This document shows positions 27,846 to 41,369 of a DNA stretch of 64,000 bases, piece by piece. Positions within the stretch are counted from its first letter, which is position 1; every line of letters starts with the position of its first letter. The notes beneath the pieces were generated by a model that made no database searches, was not told the origin of the DNA, and saw nothing but the letters and a program-made list of their open reading frames with translations. The DNA is from Burkholderiales bacterium (GTDB taxonomy: Bacteria; Pseudomonadota; Gammaproteobacteria; Burkholderiales; SG8-39): assembly GCA_014860445.1 (NCBI GenBank), contig JACZJT010000027.1, forward strand, positions 62,001-126,000, read 5' to 3'. The position numbers and the translations under genes were made by a program.

Positions 27846-29474
27846 ATGCAATCGAAAACCCTAAAGTTCAAGGTCGTCTTCTATCTGGCCGTAGCGTTGA
27901 CGCTGGCGATGCTGATCTTTATCGCCCTCGTCGTCCGGCACCAGCGCGATGAGTTGCTGCGCGAAGCAATTGAGCACGTCGGCCAGATTTCGGACGTCAT
28001 CAAGAAAAGCACCCACTTCGCCATGCTTGCCAACCAGCCGACCTATGTGGACAGCATCATCAAGGATGTGGGCAGCCACGGGAATCTGGAGAAAGTCAGG
28101 ATACTGGCCAAGGACGGCACCATTATTCACTCCACTTACCAGGCCGAACTCGGCTCAACGGTGGACCGCAAAGCCGAAGGCTGCGTCCTTTGCCACCGCA
28201 GCGATGCGCCGCTGGAGCCGATTCCGCAGACCCAGCGCACGCGGCTCTTTTCCACGCCGGACGGACGGCCGAGGCTGGGGGCGATGGACGTGATTCGCAA
28301 CGAACCCTCCTGCTATACCGCGAACTGTCATGTGCACAGCAAGGCGCAATCGGTACTGGGCGTCCTCGACATCGTCTATTCGCTTGATGACCTTGATCGA
28401 AAGATGCGCATCAACGCGATCAACATGGTTCTGCTGTCAATCGGATTCATCATCATCGCCGCCCTCAGCGTGGGGTTTTTCGTGCACCGACTGGTCTATG
28501 TGCCCCTGCGCGATTTGGAGGCTGGAGCCAGGCGACTGTCTTCTGGAAATCTGGACGAGACCATCCCGGTGCGCAGCCAGGATGAATTCGGCCAACTGGC
28601 GGGTTCGTTCAATTCCATGACCGTGGCGCTGCGCAATTCCCAGGCGGAACTGCGCGAATGGGGCCACACGCTGGAACAGAAGGTCGAGAAGCGAACGCAG
28701 GAATTGCGTATCGCCGAGGCCGAAACCGCGCGCACCGAGAAACTGGCATCGGTCGGCCTGCTTGCGGCCGGGATCGCGCACGAACTGAACAACCCGCTTA
28801 CCGGGGTGCTTACCTTCACCACCTTGTTGCGCAAAAAAATGCCGGAGGGAACCCCGGACGCCGAAGATCTCGATCTGGTAATCCGGGAAACCAAACGCTG
28901 CGCGACCATCATCAGGCGGCTCCTGGATTTCGCGCGGGAAAAAACCCCGGAGAAGAGTTTTGCCGATCTCAACCAGGTGATCGAAGACACGGCGCGGATT
29001 GTCGAGCGGCCCGCGTCATTTCGAGATATTGAAATTGCCATGAATCTCGACCCGAACCTGCCGCAGGTCTGGGTTGATGCCGACCTGATCAAGCAGGTCA
29101 TCATGAACATGTTGGTCAACGCCCAGCATGCGATCGAGCACGAAGGCAATATTACGGTTCGCAGCCGCCTGTTTCCGCAGCCGCGGAGTCCCGAGCCGGG
29201 AATGGAGCCGGTGAACATGGTGGAAATCTCCGTGATCGATACAGGATGCGGTATTCCGGAAAAAAACCTCAAGCGGATTTTCGATCCGTTTTTCACGTCG
29301 AAAGAAGTGGGCAAGGGCACCGGGCTGGGCTTGTCGGTGAGTCATGGGATCGTAAGGGCCCACGGCGGGGCCATCGAGGTGGAAAGCGTCGTCGGAAGCG
29401 GGTCAACCTTCCGCATTTATTTGCCCGTGGAACCTCCCGCGGGCGAGGCGCAAAGCAGCAGGAGCTATCAATGA
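27846..29474 (+). CDS. Haem-c sensor histidine kinase (first copy)
   Basis: A 542-residue membrane kinase. TM1 is about residues 9-30, TM2 about 192-213, with a 160-residue periplasmic domain between them. That domain holds a c-type haem motif CVLCH (113-117) and a second CX4CH motif, CYTANCH (156-162), the spacing known from cytochromes c3. After TM2 come HAMP (214-266), a coiled coil, HisKA with phospho-acceptor His312 in AGIAHELNNPLTG, and an ATPase domain with DTGCGI (465-470) and GTGLGL (491-496). It overlaps the sigma-54 activator gene by 4 bases, so the two form a pair. A redox-, oxygen- or NO-sensing role through periplasmic haem is inference. A paralogue is encoded at 35582. Confidence 0.85.
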   Translation: MQSKTLKFKVVFYLAVALTLAMLIFIALVVRHQRDELLREAIEHVGQISDVIKKSTHFAMLANQPTYVDSIIKDVGSHGNLEKVRILAKDGTIIHSTYQAELGSTVDRKAEGCVLCHRSDAPLEPIPQTQRTRLFSTPDGRPRLGAMDVIRNEPSCYTANCHVHSKAQSVLGVLDIVYSLDDLDRKMRINAINMVLLSIGFIIIAALSVGFFVHRLVYVPLRDLEAGARRLSSGNLDETIPVRSQDEFGQLAGSFNSMTVALRNSQAELREWGHTLEQKVEKRTQELRIAEAETARTEKLASVGLLAAGIAHELNNPLTGVLTFTTLLRKKMPEGTPDAEDLDLVIRETKRCATIIRRLLDFAREKTPEKSFADLNQVIEDTARIVERPASFRDIEIAMNLDPNLPQVWVDADLIKQVIMNMLVNAQHAIEHEGNITVRSRLFPQPRSPEPGMEPVNMVEISVIDTGCGIPEKNLKRIFDPFFTSKEVGKGTGLGLSVSHGIVRAHGGAIEVESVVGSGSTFRIYLPVEPPAGEAQSSRSYQ

Positions 29475-30898
29475 AAGCCAGGATACTGGTGGTCGACGAC
29501 GAAGAGATCGTCGTCAGAAGTTGCCTACGCATTCTGGGCGATGACGGCGAATATGAAGTCGAGGCAGTGCGGGACGGCATGGAGGCATTGAGGAAGATCG
29601 ACGAGAATCATTTTGACGCGCTCATCCTCGACATCATGATGCCGAAGATGGACGGGCTCGAGGTGCTGCGCCGGGTGAAAGAGACGCATCCTGACATCGA
29701 CGTCATCATGGTCACCGGACTGTCCCAGATCGAGACCGCGGTGCGCTCGATGAAGCTCGGGGCCTTCGACTACCTGTCCAAGCCCTTCGATCCTGACGAG
29801 CTCAAACTCGTGGTGAAACGTGCCATCGAGCGGCGCAAGCTGATGCAGGAGAACACGGAACTCAGGAGCGAAGTCAGCTCCAAGTACCGCTTCGAGAATA
29901 TCATCGGGGCCAGTCCGCAGATGCAGAACGTCTACCGGCTGATCGCGAAATGCGCGCCGACCAACAGCACGGTGATGCTGACCGGCGAGAGCGGAACCGG
30001 CAAGGAGTTGATCGCGCGCGCGATCCACTACAACAGCCTGCGCAAGGACAAGCCTTTCGTGGCGGTCGATTGCAATTCGCTCAGCGAGAACCTCCTCGAG
30101 AGCGAGATGTTCGGACACGTAAAGGGCTCGTTTACCGGCGCCGTAACCAACAAGAAAGGCATGTTCGAAGTCGCGGAAAGCGGGACTCTGTTTCTGGATG
30201 AGATCGGCAATGTCTCGCTTACCACCCAGGCCAAGCTCTTGCGCGTCATACAGGAACGGGAGTTCAAGGCGGTGGGCGATACGCGGACGCAGAGCGCCAA
30301 CTTCCGTCTGATCACCGCCACGAACAAGGATCTGAAGGCAATGGTGGCAGAAGGAACCTTTCGCGAGGATCTTTTTTACCGCATCAATATATTTCCCATT
30401 CCGATACCGCCGCTGAGGGAGCGTCGGGACGACATCGCACCTCTGGCTTTCCATTTTCTAAACGTCTTCAACGCGGAGTTGGGGAAGCAAGTCAGCGAGT
30501 TCTCCGAAGGGGCGATGAGCGCCCTGGTGCACCATGACTGGCCAGGCAATGTGCGCGAACTGGAGAATACGGTTCACCGCGCCGTGATCCTGGCCGCAGA
30601 CAAGGTCGTTCGGCAGGCGCACCTGACCAACATTGTCGACATGCTTCCGCGGCTCGATCTGGACGTCCCCATGACCAGCGACGAGCTCAAACGGATCAAG
30701 AAAGTGGCGCGGGAAAAGTCGGTGGAAAGCATTGAGAAACTGTTCGTTCTGGAGGCGCTCAAGCGCAACGCGTGGAACGTAACGCGAAGCGCCGAGGAAA
30801 CCGGAATGCAGCGCGCCAATTTCCAGGCGCTGATGAAAAAGTACGATATCCGCATCCGCGGTACCGAGCAAAATCCCGTCGACTCACCCTCCGAATAG
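29471..30898 (+). CDS. Sigma-54-dependent response regulator (NtrC family), partner of the haem kinase
   Basis: A 475-residue activator; the ATG at 29471 overlaps the kinase stop (ATGA), and codons upstream in frame are inside the kinase gene. Receiver at 1-120 with phospho-acceptor Asp54 in LILDIMMPKMDG; AAA+ domain with Walker A GESGTGKE (172-179) and sigma-54 loop GSFTGA (219-224, Ser in place of the usual Ala, which is tolerated in the family); Walker B LFLDEIGNV; Fis-like helix-turn-helix near the C-terminus (NAWNVTRSAEETGMQRANF). Its targets are probably sigma-54 promoters in the redox locus, but I did not find a convincing -24/-12 element there by eye. Confidence 0.9.
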   Translation: MKARILVVDDEEIVVRSCLRILGDDGEYEVEAVRDGMEALRKIDENHFDALILDIMMPKMDGLEVLRRVKETHPDIDVIMVTGLSQIETAVRSMKLGAFDYLSKPFDPDELKLVVKRAIERRKLMQENTELRSEVSSKYRFENIIGASPQMQNVYRLIAKCAPTNSTVMLTGESGTGKELIARAIHYNSLRKDKPFVAVDCNSLSENLLESEMFGHVKGSFTGAVTNKKGMFEVAESGTLFLDEIGNVSLTTQAKLLRVIQEREFKAVGDTRTQSANFRLITATNKDLKAMVAEGTFREDLFYRINIFPIPIPPLRERRDDIAPLAFHFLNVFNAELGKQVSEFSEGAMSALVHHDWPGNVRELENTVHRAVILAADKVVRQAHLTNIVDMLPRLDLDVPMTSDELKRIKKVAREKSVESIEKLFVLEALKRNAWNVTRSAEETGMQRANFQALMKKYDIRIRGTEQNPVDSPSE

Positions 30899-31331: not shown

Positions 31332-32507
31332 ATGGTTCTCTTAATTGTGGTTCTCACCATCATTGTCTTCATACTGGTGGATTTTTCGCTGCGCGTATAT
31401 TTTCAAAGAAGGCAGGCGCTGAAACTCAAGAAAGAGCGCGAAGAAGCGCTTGATATTGGACTGAGGCTCGACTATTCGGAAGAGGCAAAAACGCTCAAAC
31501 GCGTGGAGGTCAAAGATCCGAAAGCGCGAATACTGGCCGTTGACGATGAGTCGATCATCCTGGACAGCTTCCGGAAGATTCTGGTCGTCGCGGGCTATAG
31601 CATCGATACGGTAGAAAAAGGCCGGGAAGCGCTGGGTCTGATTCTGAAGAATGAATACGACTTCGTCTTTACCGATCTGAAAATGCCGGAAATGGACGGG
31701 CTGGAAGTTACCAAGGCCGTGAAACACCTGCGTCCCGATATCGATGTGATCGTCATCACCGGCTATGCGTCGATCGATACCGCGGTAGAAACCATGAAGT
31801 ACGGGGCAATGGATTACGTCCAAAAGCCGTTCACAGAGGACGAGTTGATCCAGTTTTTCAACAAATCCGTGATCAAGCGCAGGGACCGCATCGAACGGGA
31901 AATGAAGCCGACTGTGCGGCTGATCACCGCTTCAACCACCGAATCAGGGTCGCGACGCGAATTCAACGTGCCCGCGGGAATCTTCGTTTCCCGCAATCAC
32001 ACCTGGGTCAATGTGGAAATGAACGGCATCGCTCGTGTTGGAATCGACGACTTCGTGCGCAAGATCATCAAACAGATCGACAAGGTGGAACTGCCCAAAC
32101 CAAACAAGGACGTAAAGCGGGGTGACCCGCTCTTCTCGATTACGCACAACGGACACACCATCGACGTCGCATCGCCGATCAGCGGAAAGGTCACAATGAT
32201 CAACAAGGAACATCTTGAACACCCGGATCTGATCGCGCTGAGTCCGTTCGAGTTGAGTTGGATGTGTTGCATCGATCCGTCCGACCTAGCGGAAGAATTG
32301 CACTCCCTGAAGATCGGCGCCGATACCATCAACTGGTATCGCGAGGAAATTGACAAATACGCCGAGCTCGCAAAAGGAATCGAACAGGACGGCGCCGCGG
32401 GAACGCCGACAGTCCGAGGCGCGGACAAGGCAGCAGATCAAAAAGCGGACGAAAGGCTGGTCGAAGCGTTTGCCAATGCCTTTCTGCGCCGGCGGATAGC
32501 AGCCTGA
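31332..32507 (+). CDS. Membrane-anchored receiver fused to a GcvH-like domain
   Basis: A 391-residue protein with an unusual order: N-terminal membrane helix (3-20), basic linker, a complete receiver (about 65-185; acidic pocket DDE at 71-73, phospho-acceptor Asp115 in VFTDLKMPEMDG, Lys165), then a domain resembling glycine-cleavage H protein (about 215-320): HTWVNVEMNGIARVGIDDF, KVELPKPNKDVKRGDPLFSI, DVASPISGKVTMIN. Counting back from the conserved PxSG, the lipoyl-lysine position is Gly274 (THNGHTID), so lipoylation is not possible at the usual site. No effector DNA-binding domain. SD GGAGG precedes ATG. It heads the redox-complex genes; it may couple kinase signalling to the membrane complex, but this is speculation. 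Confidence 0.85.
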   Translation: MVLLIVVLTIIVFILVDFSLRVYFQRRQALKLKKEREEALDIGLRLDYSEEAKTLKRVEVKDPKARILAVDDESIILDSFRKILVVAGYSIDTVEKGREALGLILKNEYDFVFTDLKMPEMDGLEVTKAVKHLRPDIDVIVITGYASIDTAVETMKYGAMDYVQKPFTEDELIQFFNKSVIKRRDRIEREMKPTVRLITASTTESGSRREFNVPAGIFVSRNHTWVNVEMNGIARVGIDDFVRKIIKQIDKVELPKPNKDVKRGDPLFSITHNGHTIDVASPISGKVTMINKEHLEHPDLIALSPFELSWMCCIDPSDLAEELHSLKIGADTINWYREEIDKYAELAKGIEQDGAAGTPTVRGADKAADQKADERLVEAFANAFLRRRIAA

Positions 32508-32549: not shown

Positions 32550-33080
32550 ATGTTCAAGTATCTCGCTGCAGCCGGCTCGTTGATTCTTCTCCTCGCGGTC
32601 AGCCTGCCGTGCAAATCGGACACACTCGCGATTCCGTCGGTAAAGAGCTTTCCTTCCTCGGTGGGCGAGGTGACGTTTACCCATGAGATGCACATCAAGG
32701 ACCGCGGGATCCAGTGCGTCGAGTGCCACCATTCGCTGAATGCAAAGCCCCTGGGCGCGCCGCGAACAGCAGATGTCAAATCCTCATCGGCCAAATGCCC
32801 GATAAATGTCAAGACGTTAAATACCCCTCATCCCGACTATTTCAAATCCTCCTCGATCAAATGCGCGATTTGTCATATCGATTCGGATACGACGAAAGAG
32901 AGTGCGTACACGTGCTCGGGATGCCATCGCACCAATCCGGTAAACATTGCCGATGAAACGCTCAGTTCGAAAGTGGTGGTTCACAAGCAGTGCTGGAAAT
33001 GCCACCAGGTGGGTGTGGGCAAGGAAGCCGGCAGCGCTTGCGAAAAATGCCATTCCGGCGAAAAAACCCTGGATCGATGA
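32550..33080 (+). CDS. Periplasmic pentahaem c-type cytochrome (cytochrome c3/c7-like)
   Basis: A 176-residue protein with a signal peptide (about residues 1-23) and five CXXCH motifs at 56-60, 105-109, 122-126, 148-152 and 164-168. Several additional histidines (THEMH, HH after the first motif, HPDY, VVHKQ) could serve as distal ligands, as in class III cytochromes. The first segment VGEVTFTHEMHIKDRGIQCVECHH has the cytochrome c7/c3 'F-x-H-x-x-H' pattern. It lies 42 bases after the receiver-GcvH gene and 37 before the ferredoxin gene, and probably is the periplasmic electron carrier or cytochrome subunit of the complex. SD is AAAGGGGTAGCC. Confidence 0.88.
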   Translation: MFKYLAAAGSLILLLAVSLPCKSDTLAIPSVKSFPSSVGEVTFTHEMHIKDRGIQCVECHHSLNAKPLGAPRTADVKSSSAKCPINVKTLNTPHPDYFKSSSIKCAICHIDSDTTKESAYTCSGCHRTNPVNIADETLSSKVVVHKQCWKCHQVGVGKEAGSACEKCHSGEKTLDR

Positions 33081-33117: not shown

Positions 33118-34002
33118 GTGGATAGAAGACAGTTTTTCATGGCAACGGCTACCGTAGCTGCAGGCGGCGTACCCAACCTCAACATCAAAGCCGACACTGC
33201 GATACCGCCCAAGGAATTCGTGGGTGTACTCGTCGATACAACCCGGTGCATCGGGTGCAGGTCCTGCGAAGTCGCCTGCTCGGAAGCGCAGAGCAACTTT
33301 GTCCCGGATACGAAGAACGACAATGCACTTGAAAAGATCAGGGATACAAGCGAAAAGCAGTACACGATCGTGAATCGATTCGAAACGGAAAAAGGCCCTG
33401 TATTCGTAAAGAAGAACTGCCTGCATTGCTGGCAGCCCGCATGCGCGGCTGCGTGTTTAGTAAACGCAATGCTCAAGACCAAGGAAGGGCCGGTGACCTG
33501 GGACGGGGATAAGTGCATGGGATGCCGGTTTTGCATGATTTCGTGCCCGTTCGACATCCCGAAATTCGAGTATTCCGGGTGGAATCCGAGAATTATGAAA
33601 TGCACCATGTGCTACGAGCGATTGCAGGAGGGAAAGAAACCCGCCTGCGTGGAGGCCTGTCCGACGGACACCCTGATGTTTGGCCAGAAGAGAGAGCTGA
33701 TGGAAATTGCGCGGCATCGTGTGTACAGCCATCCGGACAAATATGTGCATCACATCTACGGTGAAAACGAAGTGGGAGGAACGGGCTGGCTGTACCTGTC
33801 CTCCGTTCCGTTTGACCAGATCGGGTTTAGAACCGACCTCGGAACCATACCCTATCCGGAATACACGAGAGAATTTCTTATTTCCATTCCGCTCATTGAA
33901 TTCGGTGTCCCGGCGTTCTTGCTGGCACTGAATATGCTGACAGATAGAAAAGACGAAGTGCGTGAAGAGGACGGCTGGACAGAGACAGGGGCGGACAAAT
34001 GA
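33118..34002 (+). CDS. Four-cluster ferredoxin subunit, HybA/HmcB-like, Tat-exported
   Basis: A 294-residue iron-sulfur protein. The GTG start at 33118 has TAGGA seven bases upstream and gives MDRRQFFMATATVAAG, a twin-arginine signal. Four [4Fe-4S] sets: Cys44/47/50/54, Cys101/104/109/113, Cys133/136/139/143 and Cys162/165/177/181, in the DmsB/HybA/NrfC arrangement. A C-terminal hydrophobic helix (about 253-273) would anchor it in the membrane, as in HybA. It overlaps the NrfD/HybB gene by 4 bases. Role: wires electrons between the cytochrome and quinone-reactive membrane subunit on the periplasmic side. No molybdoenzyme or hydrogenase partner is adjacent. Confidence 0.92.
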   Translation: MDRRQFFMATATVAAGGVPNLNIKADTAIPPKEFVGVLVDTTRCIGCRSCEVACSEAQSNFVPDTKNDNALEKIRDTSEKQYTIVNRFETEKGPVFVKKNCLHCWQPACAAACLVNAMLKTKEGPVTWDGDKCMGCRFCMISCPFDIPKFEYSGWNPRIMKCTMCYERLQEGKKPACVEACPTDTLMFGQKRELMEIARHRVYSHPDKYVHHIYGENEVGGTGWLYLSSVPFDQIGFRTDLGTIPYPEYTREFLISIPLIEFGVPAFLLALNMLTDRKDEVREEDGWTETGADK

Positions 34003-35195
34003 ATACAGCGGCAATCCCCACGAACGAACTTGTTCGGTTTGCGAAATTCTTCCTGCAGGAATTGAAGCCCCGCGGCAAGTGGCTGACCCCGTTCAATGTC
34101 ATTTCCATCCCGGTCATTCTCGTCGGACTGGTGATTCTCTATTTTCGCTTTACGCTGGGACTGGGGGCGGTCACCAACCTGTCTCAACAGTATCCGTTCG
34201 GGTTCTGGATCGGCTTCGACGTAATGACCGGTGTGGCACTTGCCGGCGGCGCTTATGTCCTCTGCTTCGTCGTATATGTGCTGAGAATTGAGAAATATCA
34301 TTCAATCCTCAAGGTGACGATACTGAACGGGCTGTTGGCGTACATTTTCTATTCGGGCGCTCTGTTGCTGGATTTGGGAAGACCCTGGCACATCATAAAT
34401 CCGATCATCGGAAACTCATTCGGATACAACTCCGTTCTGTTTCTGGTGGCATGGCACTTCCTTCTCTATACGGGCGCGCTGTTTCTGGAATTTTCGCCAA
34501 CCATTGCCGAGTGGGCGCACTGGGAAAAACTGCGCAAGTTTCTCACCAGCATGACGCTGGGCACGGTGATAGTGGGCATCACGCTCTCGATGCTCCACCA
34601 ATCCGGCATCGGCGCGATGTTTTTGATGGCCAAACCGAAAATTCATCCGCTCTGGTATTCCGAATACATCCCGCTCCTGTATTTTGTATCCAGCATTTTC
34701 GGTGGACTGGCGATGGTCATATTCGAGGGAACCATGAGTTCCAAGATCTTCAGCAACCTGATCGGCCAAAAAACCCACCATTCTCATAACGACATCATCC
34801 TGGGTCTGGCCAAGGGTGCGGCCATCACCATGTTTGTCTACTATTTTTTCCTGGCATTTATTTTCATGCACGGGGAAAAATGGACGCTGATCAATACGTC
34901 CTGGGGCTATTGGTATCTGGTTGAGGTGATCGGTTTTGTGCTGGTCCCGTGCTTTATGTTTGCCTACGGTGTGAGAAACAAGCGATTCGGCGTAATCAAG
35001 ACGGCGGCAATCATGACCGTGTTGGGCGTCATCCTCAACCGGCAGAATGTATGTCTGATCGCCTACAACTGGTATGTCGTGGACAAGTACTATCCGTCGT
35101 GGCAGGAGCTAACCGTGACGCTCATGGTTGTCTTTGTGGAAATATGGGTCTTCAGGTGGATAGTGACCCGCATGTCGGTATTCAGCAAGGAATAG
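33999..35195 (+). CDS. NrfD/HybB-family integral membrane quinone-interacting subunit
   Basis: A 398-residue polytopic protein, about ten membrane helices, matching HybB/HmcC/QrcD-type members (the shorter PsrC/NrfD type has eight). Recognisable segments: YPFGFWIGFDVMTGVALAGG, SGALLLDLGRPWH, MTLGTVIVGITLSMLHQSGI and LNRQNVCLIAYNW. Family members exchange electrons with menaquinone or ubiquinone and may move protons. It is coupled by ATGA to the ferredoxin gene and followed after 14 bases by a small one-helix subunit. Confidence 0.92.
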   Translation: MNTAAIPTNELVRFAKFFLQELKPRGKWLTPFNVISIPVILVGLVILYFRFTLGLGAVTNLSQQYPFGFWIGFDVMTGVALAGGAYVLCFVVYVLRIEKYHSILKVTILNGLLAYIFYSGALLLDLGRPWHIINPIIGNSFGYNSVLFLVAWHFLLYTGALFLEFSPTIAEWAHWEKLRKFLTSMTLGTVIVGITLSMLHQSGIGAMFLMAKPKIHPLWYSEYIPLLYFVSSIFGGLAMVIFEGTMSSKIFSNLIGQKTHHSHNDIILGLAKGAAITMFVYYFFLAFIFMHGEKWTLINTSWGYWYLVEVIGFVLVPCFMFAYGVRNKRFGVIKTAAIMTVLGVILNRQNVCLIAYNWYVVDKYYPSWQELTVTLMVVFVEIWVFRWIVTRMSVFSKE

Positions 35196-35581: not shown

Positions 35582-37444
35582 ATGGTAACAAGAATAAGTT
35601 TAAGGCTGATACTAGCCGTCGGCGTATTCACCGTTTTTATCATCGGTGTATTTTCCTATTTCAGCATCGGTGCACAGACTGATGCACTGATTTCCCAGGC
35701 GGGAATACATGCGAACCAGCTGAGCGAGGCAATCAAGAACAGCACGCTTACCAGCATGCTGGAAAACAAAAGAGACGAAGTGCACGCGATCATCAATACC
35801 GTCTCTCACGACTCGAGTATTACGGAGATCCGGATACTCAACAAGGAAGGCGTCGTTACATTTTCTTCGCGCGGTGATTCGATCGGAAAATCGGTCGATA
35901 AGCATGCCGAAAGCTGCTACGCGTGCCATACGGCAAATGCGCCCTTGCAGAGGCTGCCGATCGACGAAAGAATGCGGATCTACCGGATCAGTCCGGATTC
36001 CCCGCGCATACTCGCCGTCATCAATCCGATTTACAACCAGCCGACCTGCCACCAGGCGGCCTGCCATGCGCACACCAAGGACCAAACCGTGCTGGGGGTG
36101 CTCGACATCAAGATGGACTTGAAGAATGTCGACCAGCAGGTGGAGGACAGCAAGTTCAGATTGATCATTTTTGCCGCCATCGCAATCCTCGCTTTGAGCG
36201 TGTTTATCGCTTATTTCGTCAGAAAATGGATCGGCAAACCCGTCAGGGAGTTGGTGAAGGCAACCAATCAGGTGAGCTCGGGGAATTTGAGTTACGAGAT
36301 AGAATCGCCCGGCAAGGATGAACTGGGAATACTCGCAAGGTCATTCAACAAAATGACCAAGAGCCTCGCGGAAGCCAAACAGCAGCTGTTTCACGCCGAC
36401 AAGATGGCGTCGCTTGGGAGGCTCGCAGCGGGTGTTGCGCACGAAATCAACAACCCGCTTACGGGTGTGCTGACGTACAGCAGCTTTCTTCTCAAGCGGA
36501 CCAAGGACAATCCGGAACTGCAGGAGAACCTCGAAGTCATCGTCCGGGAAACAATACGCAGCAGGGAGATCGTCAAGAGCCTGCTCGATTTTTCCCGGCA
36601 GTCTGTTCCGAAAAAGCACAGCGCGGACGTCAACAAGGTTTTGAAAAACGCGATCGAAGTGGTCGCAAGCCAGCTCTTGCTCAAGAAGATCGAGCTTGAC
36701 GCGCATTTCGATACGTCCCTGCCCGAAGTGAAAATCGATGCGAATCAGATTCAGCAGGTTTTCATAAACCTGTTTGTGAACGCCGCCGACGCGATCGGAG
36801 ACAACGGCGGCAAGATTTCCGTCGATGCTTCAGTGATATCGCTCTCGCCGCAGGGGCTGGCACAGATCAAGGCCGCAGTTTGCCCGAAAGGGCACGACCT
36901 GATGGACAGCGAACTGAAAATCTACGGCCTGCCGAGCGTGAAAGTAAAGATTGCAGCCAACGGCAATGTGGGCACCATAAACCTGGATCCGGTTTACGGA
37001 AAACACCGCCACGAATACGGCATCACGATCGAAAAAGGAAGGGAAGTGCGGGTTTCATGTCCGCAATGCAACGCTTCGTTGGTCGAGGAAAATGTCAAGT
37101 GTCCGGAATGCGGATCATCCGTCTGCTGTTTTGATGTCCTGTCAAACGGTAAATTCGAGGGCTGCACGAATCCGGAATGTGCCTGGCAACGATGGCAGGC
37201 AGTGGACGAAATCGGGCACAAGGAATTCATACAGGTAAAAATAGCCGATACAGGCCAGGGAATCCGAAAGGAGGATTTGTCGCGGATTTTCGAGCCGTTT
37301 TTCACCACCAAAGGCGAGCACGGAAACGGCCTCGGACTCGCGGTCAGCTGGGGAATCGTTGACAGCCACGATGGAACGATTAACGTCGAGAGCGAGCTGG
37401 GAACGGGAACGACGTTTATCGTACGCCTGCCTCTGCAAAAATAG
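35582..37444 (+). CDS. Haem-c sensor histidine kinase (second copy) with zinc-ribbon-like insert in the ATPase domain
   Basis: A 620-residue paralogue of the kinase at 27846. TM1 about 8-29, TM2 about 193-213; periplasmic haem motifs CYACH (112-116) and CHQAACH (156-162, CX4CH) are at the same positions as in the first copy. HAMP 214-266; HisKA with His287 in AGVAHEINNPLTG; ATPase N-box near 396-405 and G1/G2 boxes DTGQGI (556-561) and GNGLGL (581-586). Between N-box and G1 an insert of about 125 residues (roughly 419-545) carries Cys434, Cys493/496 (CPQC), Cys507/510 (CPEC), Cys515/516 and Cys528/533, resembling zinc-ribbon pairs. The corresponding place in the first copy has only a short loop. 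It has no adjacent cognate regulator, so may share one of the four receivers nearby. Confidence 0.87.
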   Translation: MVTRISLRLILAVGVFTVFIIGVFSYFSIGAQTDALISQAGIHANQLSEAIKNSTLTSMLENKRDEVHAIINTVSHDSSITEIRILNKEGVVTFSSRGDSIGKSVDKHAESCYACHTANAPLQRLPIDERMRIYRISPDSPRILAVINPIYNQPTCHQAACHAHTKDQTVLGVLDIKMDLKNVDQQVEDSKFRLIIFAAIAILALSVFIAYFVRKWIGKPVRELVKATNQVSSGNLSYEIESPGKDELGILARSFNKMTKSLAEAKQQLFHADKMASLGRLAAGVAHEINNPLTGVLTYSSFLLKRTKDNPELQENLEVIVRETIRSREIVKSLLDFSRQSVPKKHSADVNKVLKNAIEVVASQLLLKKIELDAHFDTSLPEVKIDANQIQQVFINLFVNAADAIGDNGGKISVDASVISLSPQGLAQIKAAVCPKGHDLMDSELKIYGLPSVKVKIAANGNVGTINLDPVYGKHRHEYGITIEKGREVRVSCPQCNASLVEENVKCPECGSSVCCFDVLSNGKFEGCTNPECAWQRWQAVDEIGHKEFIQVKIADTGQGIRKEDLSRIFEPFFTTKGEHGNGLGLAVSWGIVDSHDGTINVESELGTGTTFIVRLPLQK

Positions 37445-37556
37445 TCGTGATCCGGGGTGCGGTGGTCGACGCCCCGGCAGATATGCCGCGCCAGCAGTCG
37501 CGAAGCGCTACGCGAACCGGCCGCACGAGCCTGTATCGCTATTCCAGCATCCTCGT

Positions 37557-37598
37557 TTGATCAATATCAAGCCCCCGGGAACCACGCCGGCTTACCAT
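37557..37598 (+). promoter_or_regulatory. FNR/Anr class II promoter of the nonahaem cytochrome-cytochrome b genes
   Basis: TTGATCAATATCAA (37557-37570) is a perfect TTGAT-N4-ATCAA site. TACCAT at 37593-37598 is placed so that the box is centred at about -41.5, the class II activator position; transcription would start near 37605, 35 bases before the cytochrome ATG. The rest of the 195-base gap holds nothing else recognised. Confidence 0.75.
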
Positions 37599-37639
37599 AC
37601 GCGGTCATTGCCGCAAAGGCATGTAATTGGAGGCTGGGA

Positions 37640-38959
37640 ATGGGAAGTTCGCTGAGAAGAATCACGGCGATAAAAGCGCGATTGCATGCGCGATTGACCC
37701 TTGTCGTCAGGCTGGTTTTGGCTGCGGCAATGCTCTTCGCGGCGAGTCCGAGTTCCGGCGCGGCCGACAGCGCCATATCCCAGCTCGACGAACAGTGCCT
37801 GGCATGCCATTCCTCGAAGGGAATGGAGATGAAACTGGCGAACGGTGACGTGCTTTCATTGCAGGTGGAAGGCGCGGCGTTTGCGAAATCAGTCCATAGC
37901 AAGATCGGGTGTGCGGTCTGCCATGCGGATACCTCGTTCGAGAACCATCCCCCGATCAAGAGGAAGATCGCCGGCAGCCGCGAATATTCGCTCGCGATGA
38001 CGAAGGTGTGCGAATCCTGCCACGCGCCCGTCGCCAAGCAGTACGAGGGCAGCATACATGCGGCCCAACTCCGTGACGGCAACGCCTATGCGCCTGTTTG
38101 TACGGACTGCCACAGCCCGCATGCGGTGATGGCCAAGCAGGCCTATGAGGCGTCGACCGGCGCGCCCTGCAGCAAGTGCCACGATCCCATTTTCACCGCC
38201 TACACCGGCAGCGTGCATGGCCAGGCCACCCTGGGCTGCTCCAGCTGTCACAATGCCCACGACGTAAGCGCCGCGTCCAAGGGCGACAGGTTGAAGAGCG
38301 CCTGCCTGGGGTGTCACCAGGATGCGCTGGAAGCCCACCAGAAATGGCTGCCGAATGCCGGACGGCATTTCGACGCGGTGTCCTGTCCGGCGTGTCATTC
38401 ACCCAACGCAAAACGCAAGGTCGACCTCAGGCTTTATGACGCAGTGGCGAAAGAGCGTGTTGCCGAAAAAGAGGGTGTACCGCAGTTCGAAAGCCGTGCG
38501 CGCCTGGCCGACGCCAAGGGCGGCGGCCTGGACGCGCTGGCATTGCGTAGCCTGCTGCGCGGGTTCAATTCCGAGGGAACAGACACGACCCTGCGCGGCC
38601 GCCTCGAGGTCAGCACGGGCGTTGAAGCGCATCAACTCGTGCGCAGCGCGCAAGCGATTCGGGACTGCGCAAAATGTCACCAGCAGGGCGCCGATCCGTT
38701 CCAGAGCGTCACGGTTTCCATCGTCGGCCCCGACGGCAGACAGGTGCGCTATGGTGCAAAGCCCGAGGTCCTCAACTCCATCATTTCCGTGGATTCGGTA
38801 AGCGGGTTTTACGCTATCGGCGGGACCCGCATCAAACTGCTGGACTGGCTCCTCGCCCTTGCCGTGCTGGGCGGTATCGGCGCACCCCTGGGTCATATGA
38901 CGATCCGCTGGTTATTCAAGAAATACGCGAAGAGAATCAGCGGGAAGGAAGACTCCTGA
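37640..38959 (+). CDS. Membrane-anchored nonahaem c-type cytochrome
   Basis: A 439-residue protein with nine CXXCH motifs (53-57, 91-95, 124-128, 154-158, 177-181, 200-204, 222-226, 249-253, 343-347). The ATG at 37640 follows TTGGAGGCTGGGA; upstream in-frame codons cover the FNR promoter and are not used. A signal peptide ends near SGA-AD (about residue 41); a C-terminal helix (about 398-417) anchors the protein, leaving a short basic cytoplasmic tail. Eight haems are clustered in the N-terminal 250 residues, the ninth lies after a cysteine-free spacer. Probably receives electrons from the b-type cytochrome encoded next. Confidence 0.88.
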   Translation: MGSSLRRITAIKARLHARLTLVVRLVLAAAMLFAASPSSGAADSAISQLDEQCLACHSSKGMEMKLANGDVLSLQVEGAAFAKSVHSKIGCAVCHADTSFENHPPIKRKIAGSREYSLAMTKVCESCHAPVAKQYEGSIHAAQLRDGNAYAPVCTDCHSPHAVMAKQAYEASTGAPCSKCHDPIFTAYTGSVHGQATLGCSSCHNAHDVSAASKGDRLKSACLGCHQDALEAHQKWLPNAGRHFDAVSCPACHSPNAKRKVDLRLYDAVAKERVAEKEGVPQFESRARLADAKGGGLDALALRSLLRGFNSEGTDTTLRGRLEVSTGVEAHQLVRSAQAIRDCAKCHQQGADPFQSVTVSIVGPDGRQVRYGAKPEVLNSIISVDSVSGFYAIGGTRIKLLDWLLALAVLGGIGAPLGHMTIRWLFKKYAKRISGKEDS

Positions 38960-39029: not shown

Positions 39030-39668
39030 ATGCACAGAATTTATGTCCACCCGCTTCCAGTCAGGATTTGGCACTGGATCAACGCGTTCGGATTCGTGGT
39101 GATGATTTTCACCGGATTTCAGATCCGTTACATCGGATTGATCGATCTGGTGTCGTTCCGGACGGCGGTGGTCGTGCACGACTGGATCGGATTCGTGCTC
39201 ATCGGCAATTTCTTCATCTGGCTGCTCTACTATCTGTTTACAGACAAAATCCGGGTTTATCACCCCGAATTGAGCCCGATGAAGCATTTCCGCGCGAGCC
39301 TGCGCCAGGCCATGTTCTATGGCTACGGCATTTTCAAGGGCGACCCCAATCCACACCACGTCAGCGTCTACGAAAAATTCAATTCGATGCAGAGCATGAG
39401 CTACCAGGTCATCATGCTGCTGCTGGTGCCTTTGCAATTCTGGACGGGCGTGCTGTTGTGGGACGTCAAGCGCTTTTCCGGCATGATCGACATGCTCGGA
39501 GGGGTGCGGGTGGTGGACACCGCCCATGTGCTGATTTTCATCTTCTTCTCCGGTTTTATCTTCATGCACATCTACCTCGCGACGCTCGGCCACACGCGCA
39601 TGGCTCACATCAAGTCCATGTTCAACGGCTACGAGGAAATAGAGGAAGAGCCGGGCAGCGGCAAGTAA
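39030..39668 (+). CDS. Di-haem b-type cytochrome membrane subunit (cytochrome b561/FdnI-like)
   Basis: A 212-residue integral membrane protein with about four helices, in the formate-dehydrogenase gamma / Ni,Fe-hydrogenase cytochrome b family. His residues placed at the helix ends (HPLPVRIWHWINAFGF at the start, VVVHDWIGFVLIGNF, DTAHVLIFIFF, FMHIYLATLGH) are candidate haem b ligands. It follows the nonahaem cytochrome by 70 bases and is followed by a terminator. Likely passes quinol electrons to the anchored cytochrome; comparable in size to HmcE of the Hmc complex. Confidence 0.88.
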   Translation: MHRIYVHPLPVRIWHWINAFGFVVMIFTGFQIRYIGLIDLVSFRTAVVVHDWIGFVLIGNFFIWLLYYLFTDKIRVYHPELSPMKHFRASLRQAMFYGYGIFKGDPNPHHVSVYEKFNSMQSMSYQVIMLLLVPLQFWTGVLLWDVKRFSGMIDMLGGVRVVDTAHVLIFIFFSGFIFMHIYLATLGHTRMAHIKSMFNGYEEIEEEPGSGK

Positions 39669-39785: not shown

Positions 39786-40577
39786 TTACTCGGCGTCGGA
39801 GTGCTCGGCGATAGCCTTCGCACCGAGTTTGCCCCAGGCCTGAAAACCGAACCAGAGCAACATTACCAGTCCTACGATGGGTCCGGCGATGATGAATGCC
39901 AGCCCGATGAAAGGCGCCGCGAGGAATATGGCGGTGCTTTTCACGAAGCTTGATTTCGCTGGCGCTGTCGGTTCCAGCTTGGCCGCCTCTTCAGATTTTT
40001 TCTTCTGCGCCTGGAGGGCCATTCCCGCAAGCATCACCAGCCCGACAATCGGGAAGGCGAGGATGTAGGCGAGTCCGATAAACGGCGCCGCGAGGAACAG
40101 CGCGATATTCTTGACCACGCGCGCGACATTCTGCACCCTGCTCTGCGCGGGGACCGCGGCAGGCGCGATGACGGCCGGGGCCGCGTCCGCGCTTTGTTCC
40201 GCTGCGCTTTTTTCAGACAGGGCTTTTTGAGCGCTGTCCTCGATCATTTCCGGTGAAAGCGGTTTGCGCAGGAAGCCGGACACGCCTGCCGCCGCTGCGC
40301 GGGCTTCGTTCCCCGGCGAGCCGTAGCCGGTGACGATGACTACCGGCAGCCACGGACGGCGCTGTTTCACCTGTTCAGCCATGTCGAGGCCGCTCATCCC
40401 GGGCATCTTGATGTCGGTGAACACGAGGTCATAATTTTCCGTCTCGAGCTTGTCGAGCGCTTCCTGTCCGCTGGCCGCGGTAATCACCGCGTAGCCTTTG
40501 CCGGACAGTACGCGGTCGAAACTCCTGCCGACCACCGGGTCATCATCAACTACCAGAACTTTGTGTAAGGCACTCAT
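39786..40577 (-). CDS. Receiver domain fused to a tandemly duplicated membrane-hairpin domain
   Basis: A 263-residue protein. Residues 1-120 are a full receiver (VLVVDDDPVVGRSFDRVL; phospho-acceptor Asp55 in VFTDIKMPG; conserved Lys105). An Ala/Pro/Ser-rich linker leads to two near-identical hydrophobic repeats at about 156-190 and 213-247, each containing FLAAPFIGLA followed by a PIVGLVML half, separated by a charged spacer. Each repeat could form one long or two short helices. No DNA-binding domain. It lies directly downstream of the stand-alone receiver gene. Output must be at the membrane, possibly on the redox complex; this is inference. Confidence 0.82.
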   Translation of the reverse strand: MSALHKVLVVDDDPVVGRSFDRVLSGKGYAVITAASGQEALDKLETENYDLVFTDIKMPGMSGLDMAEQVKQRRPWLPVVIVTGYGSPGNEARAAAAGVSGFLRKPLSPEMIEDSAQKALSEKSAAEQSADAAPAVIAPAAVPAQSRVQNVARVVKNIALFLAAPFIGLAYILAFPIVGLVMLAGMALQAQKKKSEEAAKLEPTAPAKSSFVKSTAIFLAAPFIGLAFIIAGPIVGLVMLLWFGFQAWGKLGAKAIAEHSDAE

Positions 40578-40592
40578 GGCATTCTCCTTGTT

Positions 40593-41054
40593 TCAGTAAG
40601 TAAGATCGTTTGGTTTCCATCCGGAACCGGCCTGTGCGCCGGTCCCTTCTTCCGGTTCATTCCGGTCCCGGTGCAGGGACCACTTCTTCTGTGTCATCGC
40701 GCCGTTCGCGACATTGATTACGTCGTCGGGGCCGACCGGTTTCGCAAGATAATCGTATGCACCCAGGCGAACCGCTTCCTTGGCGGTCTCCACGGTCGGA
40801 TATCCGGTGATAATGACCACTTCGGTTTCCGGCCATCTTTGCTTTATCGTTTTGAGAACCGCCATGCCGTCCATCCCGGGCATGCGCAGATCGAGCAGTA
40901 CTACATCGGCCGGCCGTTGCTCCATGACATTCAGCGCTTCGTTACCGTCCCGAACCACCTCTACGTTGCAATGAACGCTTGCCAGCGTCCTGATATGGCT
41001 GAGCCGCACGACTTCTTCATCGTCGACCACCAGGATTTTTGTCTTCTCGTCCAT
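40593..41054 (-). CDS. Stand-alone response regulator receiver
   Basis: A 153-residue receiver: ILVVDDEEVVRLSHIRTL, phospho-acceptor Asp55 in VLLDLRMPGMDG, conserved Thr/Lys in VVIITGYPTVE and YLAKPVGP. The ATG at complement 41052-41054 follows GAGGAAGCGAAC; an upstream in-frame ATG adds an unconserved leader. After residue 120 there is only a short polar tail, so it lacks an effector and may act in a phosphorelay or by protein contact. It starts a two-gene unit with the receiver-hairpin gene 15 bases downstream. Confidence 0.87.
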   Translation of the reverse strand: MDEKTKILVVDDEEVVRLSHIRTLASVHCNVEVVRDGNEALNVMEQRPADVVLLDLRMPGMDGMAVLKTIKQRWPETEVVIITGYPTVETAKEAVRLGAYDYLAKPVGPDDVINVANGAMTQKKWSLHRDRNEPEEGTGAQAGSGWKPNDLTY

Positions 41055-41369
41055 GTTCGCTTCCTCGCAGGGTTTCTTTTGCTTATAGCTAACGCAACGA
41101 CCATGCCAACCACGCAAGACGGAGATATATGCTGTTGTTTATCAATGGACTAGACGCGAAAAGCAGGCTGAATGCGGCGCGTATCGAGGTGCCGGCACAA
41201 GCGCCGAAGTACATTATTTTTGTACCTCGTTCCTGCGCCGAATAAAGTTTCGCTGATAATTCAGACAGCTACGAACTATCCAGGCGAGTATTTTGTTTAT
41301 GCACCGCCAGGGACGGTGGTCTCGCGGGGAGGAATGGATTTGGCGCGGCGCCGCGCGCGCCGCCGGCGT

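Follow-up and report, generated by a model that had tools for sequence, protein, structure and literature searches.

What is a response regulator to do with an output domain that resembles the lipoate-carrying H-protein of glycine cleavage, and that has lost the lysine to which lipoate is attached? The question is raised by a gene, here named RRG, in a 64,000-nucleotide stretch of a Burkholderiales genome (contig JACZJT010000027.1, positions 62,001 to 126,000; hereafter the window). An earlier note on this DNA, drawn from the sequence alone, took its product to be a membrane-anchored receiver fused to a GcvH-like domain, encoded directly in front of a redox complex. The ATG of RRG follows a GGAGG placed 6 bases 5' of it, and the features of the gene are listed here.

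31332..32507, +, RRG, membrane-anchored response regulator whose GcvH (H-protein) output domain has no lipoyl lysine, 391 aa
31335..31403, +, N-terminal membrane helix, about residues 2-24, with an F13-x3-D17-x3-R21 stripe
31530..31853, +, receiver domain, residues 67-174 (Pfam PF00072 Response_reg, E 7.4e-30)
31674-31676, +, codon of receiver Asp115
31824-31826, +, codon of receiver Lys165
31965..32351, +, H-protein (GcvH) domain, residues 212-340
32151..32153, +, Gly274, at the place of the lipoyl lysine by alignment to the genome's own GcvH
32424..32486, +, C-terminal helix, residues 365-385, a tail similar to the one in receiver-less relatives

A scan of genome contigs, from which the best 80 rows were kept, yielded at least 79 RRG loci, and the alignments described below comprise 83 RRG copies, including that of the window, all of them above a BLAST threshold applied to the GcvH domain. 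Two loci (L077 and L083) held fragments only and were left out, while the cut copy of L076 is among the 83, though too short for the tree. Among the matches listed, the homologues are 45-86% identical to RRG over the best segment, and their record titles include Betaproteobacteria, Lysobacterales, Woeseiaceae, Ignavibacteria, Calditrichota, KSB1, Gemmatimonadetes, Acidobacteria and Spirochaetes, as well as others. Within the source genome, a search with the family profile returned one full-length match, the RRG of the window, the remainder being receiver-only or GcvH-only. Occurrence in the source's own class is patchy, with RRG found in 1 of 274 genomes, that of the source itself. Among the 5000 best plasmid records, none had 80% of the RRG query covered in one place, the best places covering at most 66% at 27% identity.

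The reading of RRG as a receiver with a GcvH-like output was upheld for both domains. Asp115 and Lys165 were found where the earlier note had placed them, and RRG has the receiver with Asp, Thr/Ser and Lys by which response regulators are recognised; D115, T143 and K165 are each present in 83/83 aligned copies, an invariance that points to real phosphorylation. Pfam GCV_H matches residues 221-326 (E 9.5e-19; 67.9 bits against a cut-off of 22.2), and Response_reg and GCV_H were both matched in all 76 of the 83 copies that were scanned. The hammerhead fold expected of the output domain was likewise recovered in prediction: the modelled domain adopts the fold of H-protein, and the H-protein structures that it matches include complexes with T-protein and with lipoate enzymes. 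Eleven residues of the domain (G216, H223, W225, G232, G237, D239, D240, P255, P282, G285 and N291) are invariant in 83/83 copies. The NCBIfam cut-offs for GcvH are missed by RRG, which scores 60.4 against 115.85 bits for TIGR00527 and 68.6 against 117 bits for NF002270.

The source genome encodes a canonical GcvH on another contig, between ORFs read as gcvT and gcvP, and the lipoyl lysine of this protein aligns onto Gly274 of RRG, in agreement with the substitution that had been proposed. The window's RRG has no lysine at all at residues 264-285, residue 271 being threonine. The further proposal that Gly274 and His275 form a conserved RRG motif is rejected, as they occur in only 10/83 and 12/83 copies, respectively, in a variable loop; column 274 holds N in 18 copies, K in 11, G in 10, S in 10, T in 8, and other residues in the rest, and such a mixture implies that the lipoyl position is free to vary. 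A conserved, lipoylated lysine nearby in homologues, which the earlier note had named as a refutation of its reading, did not emerge, with the reservation that Lys271 is common (50/83) and Lys274 occurs in 11/83; the window's RRG has neither, and Glu271 together with Lys274 occurs in 0/83 copies. A looser search for E-x-x-K over residues 264-286 found 1/83 (ESRK in L079, two residues further on and out of register), and 17/83 copies have no lysine at 269-280.

Canonical GcvH, searched for with PF01597, is present in each of 15 RRG-bearing genomes, with the lipoyl lysine kept in 15/15. When canonical GcvH and RRG were aligned in pairs, a lysine fell at the lipoyl column of RRG in L105, L108, L110 and L112, the first of these being a gapped fragment of an alignment and the other three of the kind with Lys274 seen in 11/83 copies; in the same set, the L106 and L117 alignments are also gapped, and those of L111 and L116 have no match at the lipoyl column. 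Loss of the lipoyl site across the RRG family is supported by these alignments. One further residue of the domain, Cys312, is kept in 79/83 copies for no apparent reason; in the model it falls within the final strand of the domain (310-316), away from the loop tip, and it is absent from the aligned receiver-less relatives described below. A glycine cleavage neighbourhood for RRG was considered and rejected, no gcvT or gcvP being near RRG loci: GcvT and GcvP (N-terminal part) of the source genome gave no match at E 1e-3 in the ORFs of L002-L084.

The single N-terminal membrane helix of the earlier note was also borne out, with one hydrophobic helix at the N-terminus, modelled over residues 2-45 and hydrophobic over about 2-24. 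Its stripe is strongly kept in the 83 rows (F13 in 78, D17 in 79 and R21 in 81, with 2 rows gapped at each position). As these residues are spaced four apart on one helix face, which goes beyond the needs of a plain anchor, a membrane partner is likely, for which NrfD and HKz (see below) are candidates. The charge pattern places the receiver and GcvH side in the cytoplasm in 76/77 copies with a placeable helix motif, and both domains are predicted to be cytoplasmic. The Fe-S subunit encoded nearby, whose start reads as a Tat-like RRQFF, and the pentahaem cytochrome, whose N-terminus reads as signal-like, are probably periplasmic, so that direct contact by RRG would be limited to NrfD, the kinase or other membrane helices.

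The genes on either side of RRG in the window, in their order along the forward strand, are these.

27846..29474, +, second histidine kinase with CxxCH and CX4CH motifs (motifs from sequence reading)
29471..30898, +, NtrC-type sigma-54 response regulator (ORF 29246-30898, likely start 29471)
32550..33080, +, pentahaem cytochrome c7/c3-like (Pfam PF14522, PF02085; 5 CxxCH)
33118..34002, +, HmcB/HybA-like Fe-S protein with Tat-like signal (Pfam Fer4_11; NCBIfam HmcB 327.1 bits)
33999..35195, +, NrfD/HmcC-like membrane subunit (PF03916; NCBIfam HmcC 385.5 bits)
35582..37444, +, histidine kinase HKz, with an N-terminal CxxCH + CX4CH region, HAMP, HisKA and an ATPase with a Cys-rich insert
37457..38959, +, multihaem c-type cytochrome of the same gene run
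39030..39668, +, cytochrome b561-type membrane protein (PF01292, E 3.5e-25)

RRG thus lies between the NtrC-type gene and the pentahaem cytochrome gene, ending 42 bases before the latter, which is followed by the Fe-S and NrfD genes, and its position directly in front of the redox complex is as the earlier note described. The Hmc cut-offs are missed by both subunits (HmcB 327.1 against 420 bits, HmcC 385.5 against 550 bits). A window-wide search for sigma-54 promoters gave 20 matches at up to 2 mismatches, against 33.5 expected, and no inference is drawn for the DNA 5' of RRG. Beyond the run, on the reverse strand, 39786-40577 (-) encodes a response regulator whose C-terminal part looks, on reading the sequence, like two membrane hairpins, and the adjoining 40593-41117 (-) a short single-domain regulator.

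Two gene orders recur among the loci, one running Fe-S, NrfD, 13-haem cytochrome, HKz, soluble sister (a second receiver-GcvH protein, described below) and RRG, the other RRG, pentahaem cytochrome, Fe-S, NrfD and HKz. With neighbours labelled by BLAST to the window's genes and by Pfam on six representatives, the fetched stretches of the 77 loci besides the window's contain an HKz-like kinase in 73, Fe-S or NrfD in 65, and both in 63. Fe-S/NrfD genes are missing from 12/77, including L024, L032 and L080 with 5-8 kb upstream covered, and HKz from 4/77, including L011 with 8 kb covered on both sides. The 14 loci that do not have both are L008, L010, L011, L024, L025, L028, L030, L031, L032, L035, L039, L054, L059 and L080; 10 of these are cut where the missing gene would lie, and L011, L024, L032 and L080 are not plainly so. 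Window-type RRG copies have an HmcC-like NrfD downstream in 14/16, the other 2 having none, one of them the window's own short locus, while for the other 67 copies the nearest NrfD is of the other type in 43, HmcC-like in 10 and absent in 14. Five loci have two RRG genes; there the second copy is accompanied by HKz and the soluble sister, and the NrfD next to them is of the other type, indicating that RRG is paired more tightly with HKz than with a particular NrfD. NtrC-type genes occur somewhere in 18 fetched loci (19 members, all matching the NtrC of the window).

This pairing was also seen at the level of genomes. Among 148 genomes of one phylum, RRG is present in 14 and HKz in 15, with 14 common to both, and the locus of the lone HKz without RRG runs to a contig end (Fisher p 1e-18, kinship ignored). 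Nine further loci fetched from the 14 RRG genomes all contain Fe-S, NrfD, HKz and the soluble sister (9/9), although L127 and L131 seem to be duplicates of L048 and L026. The set already included the loci of the remaining 5 genomes. HKz is proposed as the partner kinase of RRG by linkage and co-occurrence only.

The HKz motifs CxxCH (112-116) and CX4CH (156-162) retain their Cys and His residues in 70/70 aligned copies, chosen by similarity to that of the window. Haem binding by HKz appears probable from these motifs, and its sensor region presumably lies outside the membrane. Both kinases of the window (27846-29474 and 35582-37444) have CxxCH and CX4CH before HAMP, and the cluster suggests, on its motifs, two c-type haem sensors in one place. 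Inserted into the ATPase domain of HKz is a stretch of some 130 residues, rich in Cys and resembling a zinc ribbon, where C434, C493, C496, C510 and C528 are conserved in 90% or more of 56 copies; two or more CxxC are found in the insert in 50/69 copies and three or more in 0/69, and the HKz of L029 gives a weak Zn_ribbon_Top1 match. The same protein matches the class 40H chemoreceptor sensor family PF21563 weakly (20.8 bits against a cut-off of 27). The whole-protein model of HKz is moderate (pLDDT 79.2, pTM 0.44), and its listed Foldseek and VIA structure matches are taken up by kinase domains, so that no claim is made on the fold of the sensor.

RRG is accompanied by two kinds of relative. 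Directly 5' of it in many loci stands the soluble receiver-GcvH protein, of about 265 aa and with no membrane helix, which is present in 59/77 loci besides the window's, anywhere in the fetched stretch. Pfam GCV_H matches it in 2/2 tested, its receiver Asp and Lys are kept in 60/60 aligned copies, and its lipoyl column, taken as residue 208 or 209 of the L012 copy, holds lysine in 2/60 or 1/60. In a tree of 149 GcvH domains, which has few columns and unsure inner forks, the membrane fusions group together (support 99/95; recovered in 98% of bootstrap trees), and the soluble sisters fall into a second group, which also holds two cut copies. The other relatives have no receiver: they are GcvH-like proteins of 220-230 aa with an N-terminal helix, encoded close to Fe-S, NrfD or kinase genes of the same sort.

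L119:7815-8483, receiver-less GcvH-like protein with N-terminal helix
L122:7465-8136, the same
L075:6748-7440, the same
L049:6197-6886, the same
L120:7784-8617, the same, a longer protein adjoining NrfD

In L119 and L122 the order is GcvH-like protein, Fe-S, NrfD, a protein of 242-259 aa, CxxCH kinase and NtrC-like regulator, and L133 has a receiver-less GcvH-like protein with an Fe-S gene. At L121:7534-11216, genes for a pentahaem cytochrome and a molybdopterin-type protein come after that of a GcvH-like protein. An in-register E-x-x-K is found in 0/7 aligned receiver-less relatives, L120 having a lysine at the lipoyl column, and all seven end in a C-terminal DGG and then a hydrophobic end, similar to the RRG tail. 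The F-x3-D helix feature of RRG is also present in L119 and L122. Since helix, GcvH-like domain and tail occur with and without the receiver, these three seem to be the core of the family and the receiver a module, the direction of gain or loss being unsettled.

Together, these findings would fit RRG as an HKz-driven, phosphorylation-controlled regulatory subunit of a quinol:cytochrome c complex, an explanation to which, taken whole, about an even chance is given, and in which we infer the phosphotransfer, the partner and the effect on electron flow. With its c-type haem region, HKz would detect redox or ligand conditions in the periplasm and phosphorylate RRG, as well as the soluble sister where present. 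The output of RRG would be protein binding, by an H-protein fold unable to carry lipoate, with the GcvH-like domain held at the inner membrane face by a helix that has a partner of its own. Phosphorylation of the receiver might then alter the contact of this domain with the NrfD/Fe-S/multihaem complex, or the assembly of kinase and complex, and electron flow would thereby be adjusted after translation. The linkage of RRG to the complex genes indicates association, not contact, and in some loci the kinases might in fact act through the NtrC-type regulators. A wider reading is put forward tentatively, with somewhat less than an even chance: that a class of NrfD-type quinol:cytochrome c complexes has an unrecognised subunit on the cytoplasmic side, namely the lysine-less membrane GcvH-like proteins, and that in one branch this subunit carries a receiver, making the activity of a respiratory complex, not transcription, the direct output of a two-component system.

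Several other explanations bear on the same evidence. RRG and its soluble sister might serve as a kinase scaffold or phosphate sink, the GcvH-like domain only dimerising or docking on HKz, with NtrC-type transcription as the output. This would suit the tightest link of RRG, that with HKz (14/14 genomes), the two receiver-GcvH proteins per kinase in many loci, the NtrC-type genes of 18 loci, and the NtrC-type gene that adjoins RRG in the window; it is nevertheless judged unlikely, because most RRG loci have no NtrC-type gene in the covered stretch, against Fe-S/NrfD in 65/77, and because the receiver-less proteins beside Fe-S/NrfD imply a role for the domain that needs no receiver. Those same proteins invite the converse proposal, that the membrane GcvH-like part belongs constitutively to the structure of the Fe-S/NrfD complex as one of its subunits, the receiver only aiding assembly or placement. 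While the receiver-less gene runs of L119 and L122, the helix feature that they share with RRG and the DGG...F tail common to both forms are what such a subunit would leave, the invariance of the receiver active site in 83/83 copies makes it distinctly improbable.

The remaining two concern what the H-protein fold might still do in its original capacity. It is very doubtful that the domain bears a cofactor or other covalent group elsewhere: the Lys271 of 50/83 homologues and the Cys312 of 79/83 are candidates, but the window's RRG has Thr271 and no lysine at 264-285, 17/83 copies have none at 269-280, and Cys312 is predicted in a strand, not at the loop tip, and is missing from the aligned receiver-less relatives. 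Nor does a decoy of the glycine cleavage system or the lipoylation enzymes, adjusting glycine or lipoate metabolism, appear credible; the close fold match, extending to structures with T-protein and lipoate enzymes, would allow it, but no GcvT or GcvP match was found in the ORFs of L002-L084, and the recurrent neighbours are redox genes. Were regulation of the redox complex by RRG correct, a haem-type kinase and a repurposed carrier fold would together provide a fast, post-translational adjustment of electron export, and RRG may let the cell adjust a respiratory electron-transfer complex by phosphorylation. The existence of this GcvH-like part both in fusion with a receiver and on its own allows a clean test.

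Compared with glycine cleavage H-protein (GcvH, PF01597), RRG shares the whole domain fold, as predicted, the Pfam match and several conserved alignment landmarks, and differs in having no in-register lipoyl lysine, a fused receiver and membrane helix, scores under the family cut-offs and no gcvT or gcvP nearby. Two NCBIfam families named as GcvH relatives touch the receiver-less proteins, not_gcvH (TIGR03077) matching 3/3 scanned and GcvH_rel_desulf (NF045810) 1/3, each well under its cut-off. Lipoyl/biotinyl-like domains without cofactor have a precedent in redox complexes, in NqrA/RnfC, through the N-terminal barrel-sandwich hybrid of NqrA (PF05896). Like NqrA, RRG has a carrier-like fold linked to a respiratory complex, and a weak NQRA_N match was found in 24/76 RRG copies, the window's not being among the matches listed; unlike RRG, the NqrA domain is not in a receiver protein.

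The complex genes resemble those of Hmc, HybAB-type and Melioribacter-type complexes in combining Fe-S, NrfD and multihaem cytochrome, and differ in the CxxCH kinase and receiver-GcvH proteins encoded alongside and in HmcB and HmcC scores below cut-off. For Melioribacter roseus, under which name the records of L048, L052 and L056 are titled, Fe-S/NrfD/multihaem complexes have been proposed to transfer electrons from quinol to periplasmic multihaem cytochromes (PMC9386147, citing earlier work). The haem-Cache sensors (sCache_heme, PF11845), described in PMC12889525 as having CXXCH in an extracytoplasmic sensor domain, are a likely parallel, by analogy, for the HKz sensor, with its CxxCH in a presumed extracytoplasmic region in 70/70 copies; PF11845 itself gave no match at E 0.001 to the two window kinases or the HKz of L029.

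For most response regulators the target is transcription or a second messenger. RRG is a response regulator, and so of a known kind, for which a GcvH output was not found described; its novelty in print is not established. The literature matches listed, mostly outside subscription journals and Galperin's output-domain review, contained no description of a receiver-GcvH protein, and the part of the archaeal census covered (PMC5847659) has no occurrence of glycine cleavage, GcvH or lipoyl. Like two-component response regulators with non-DNA output, RRG has an intact receiver and a kinase gene close by; unlike those known among the papers surveyed, it has a GcvH-type output and a membrane helix before the receiver.
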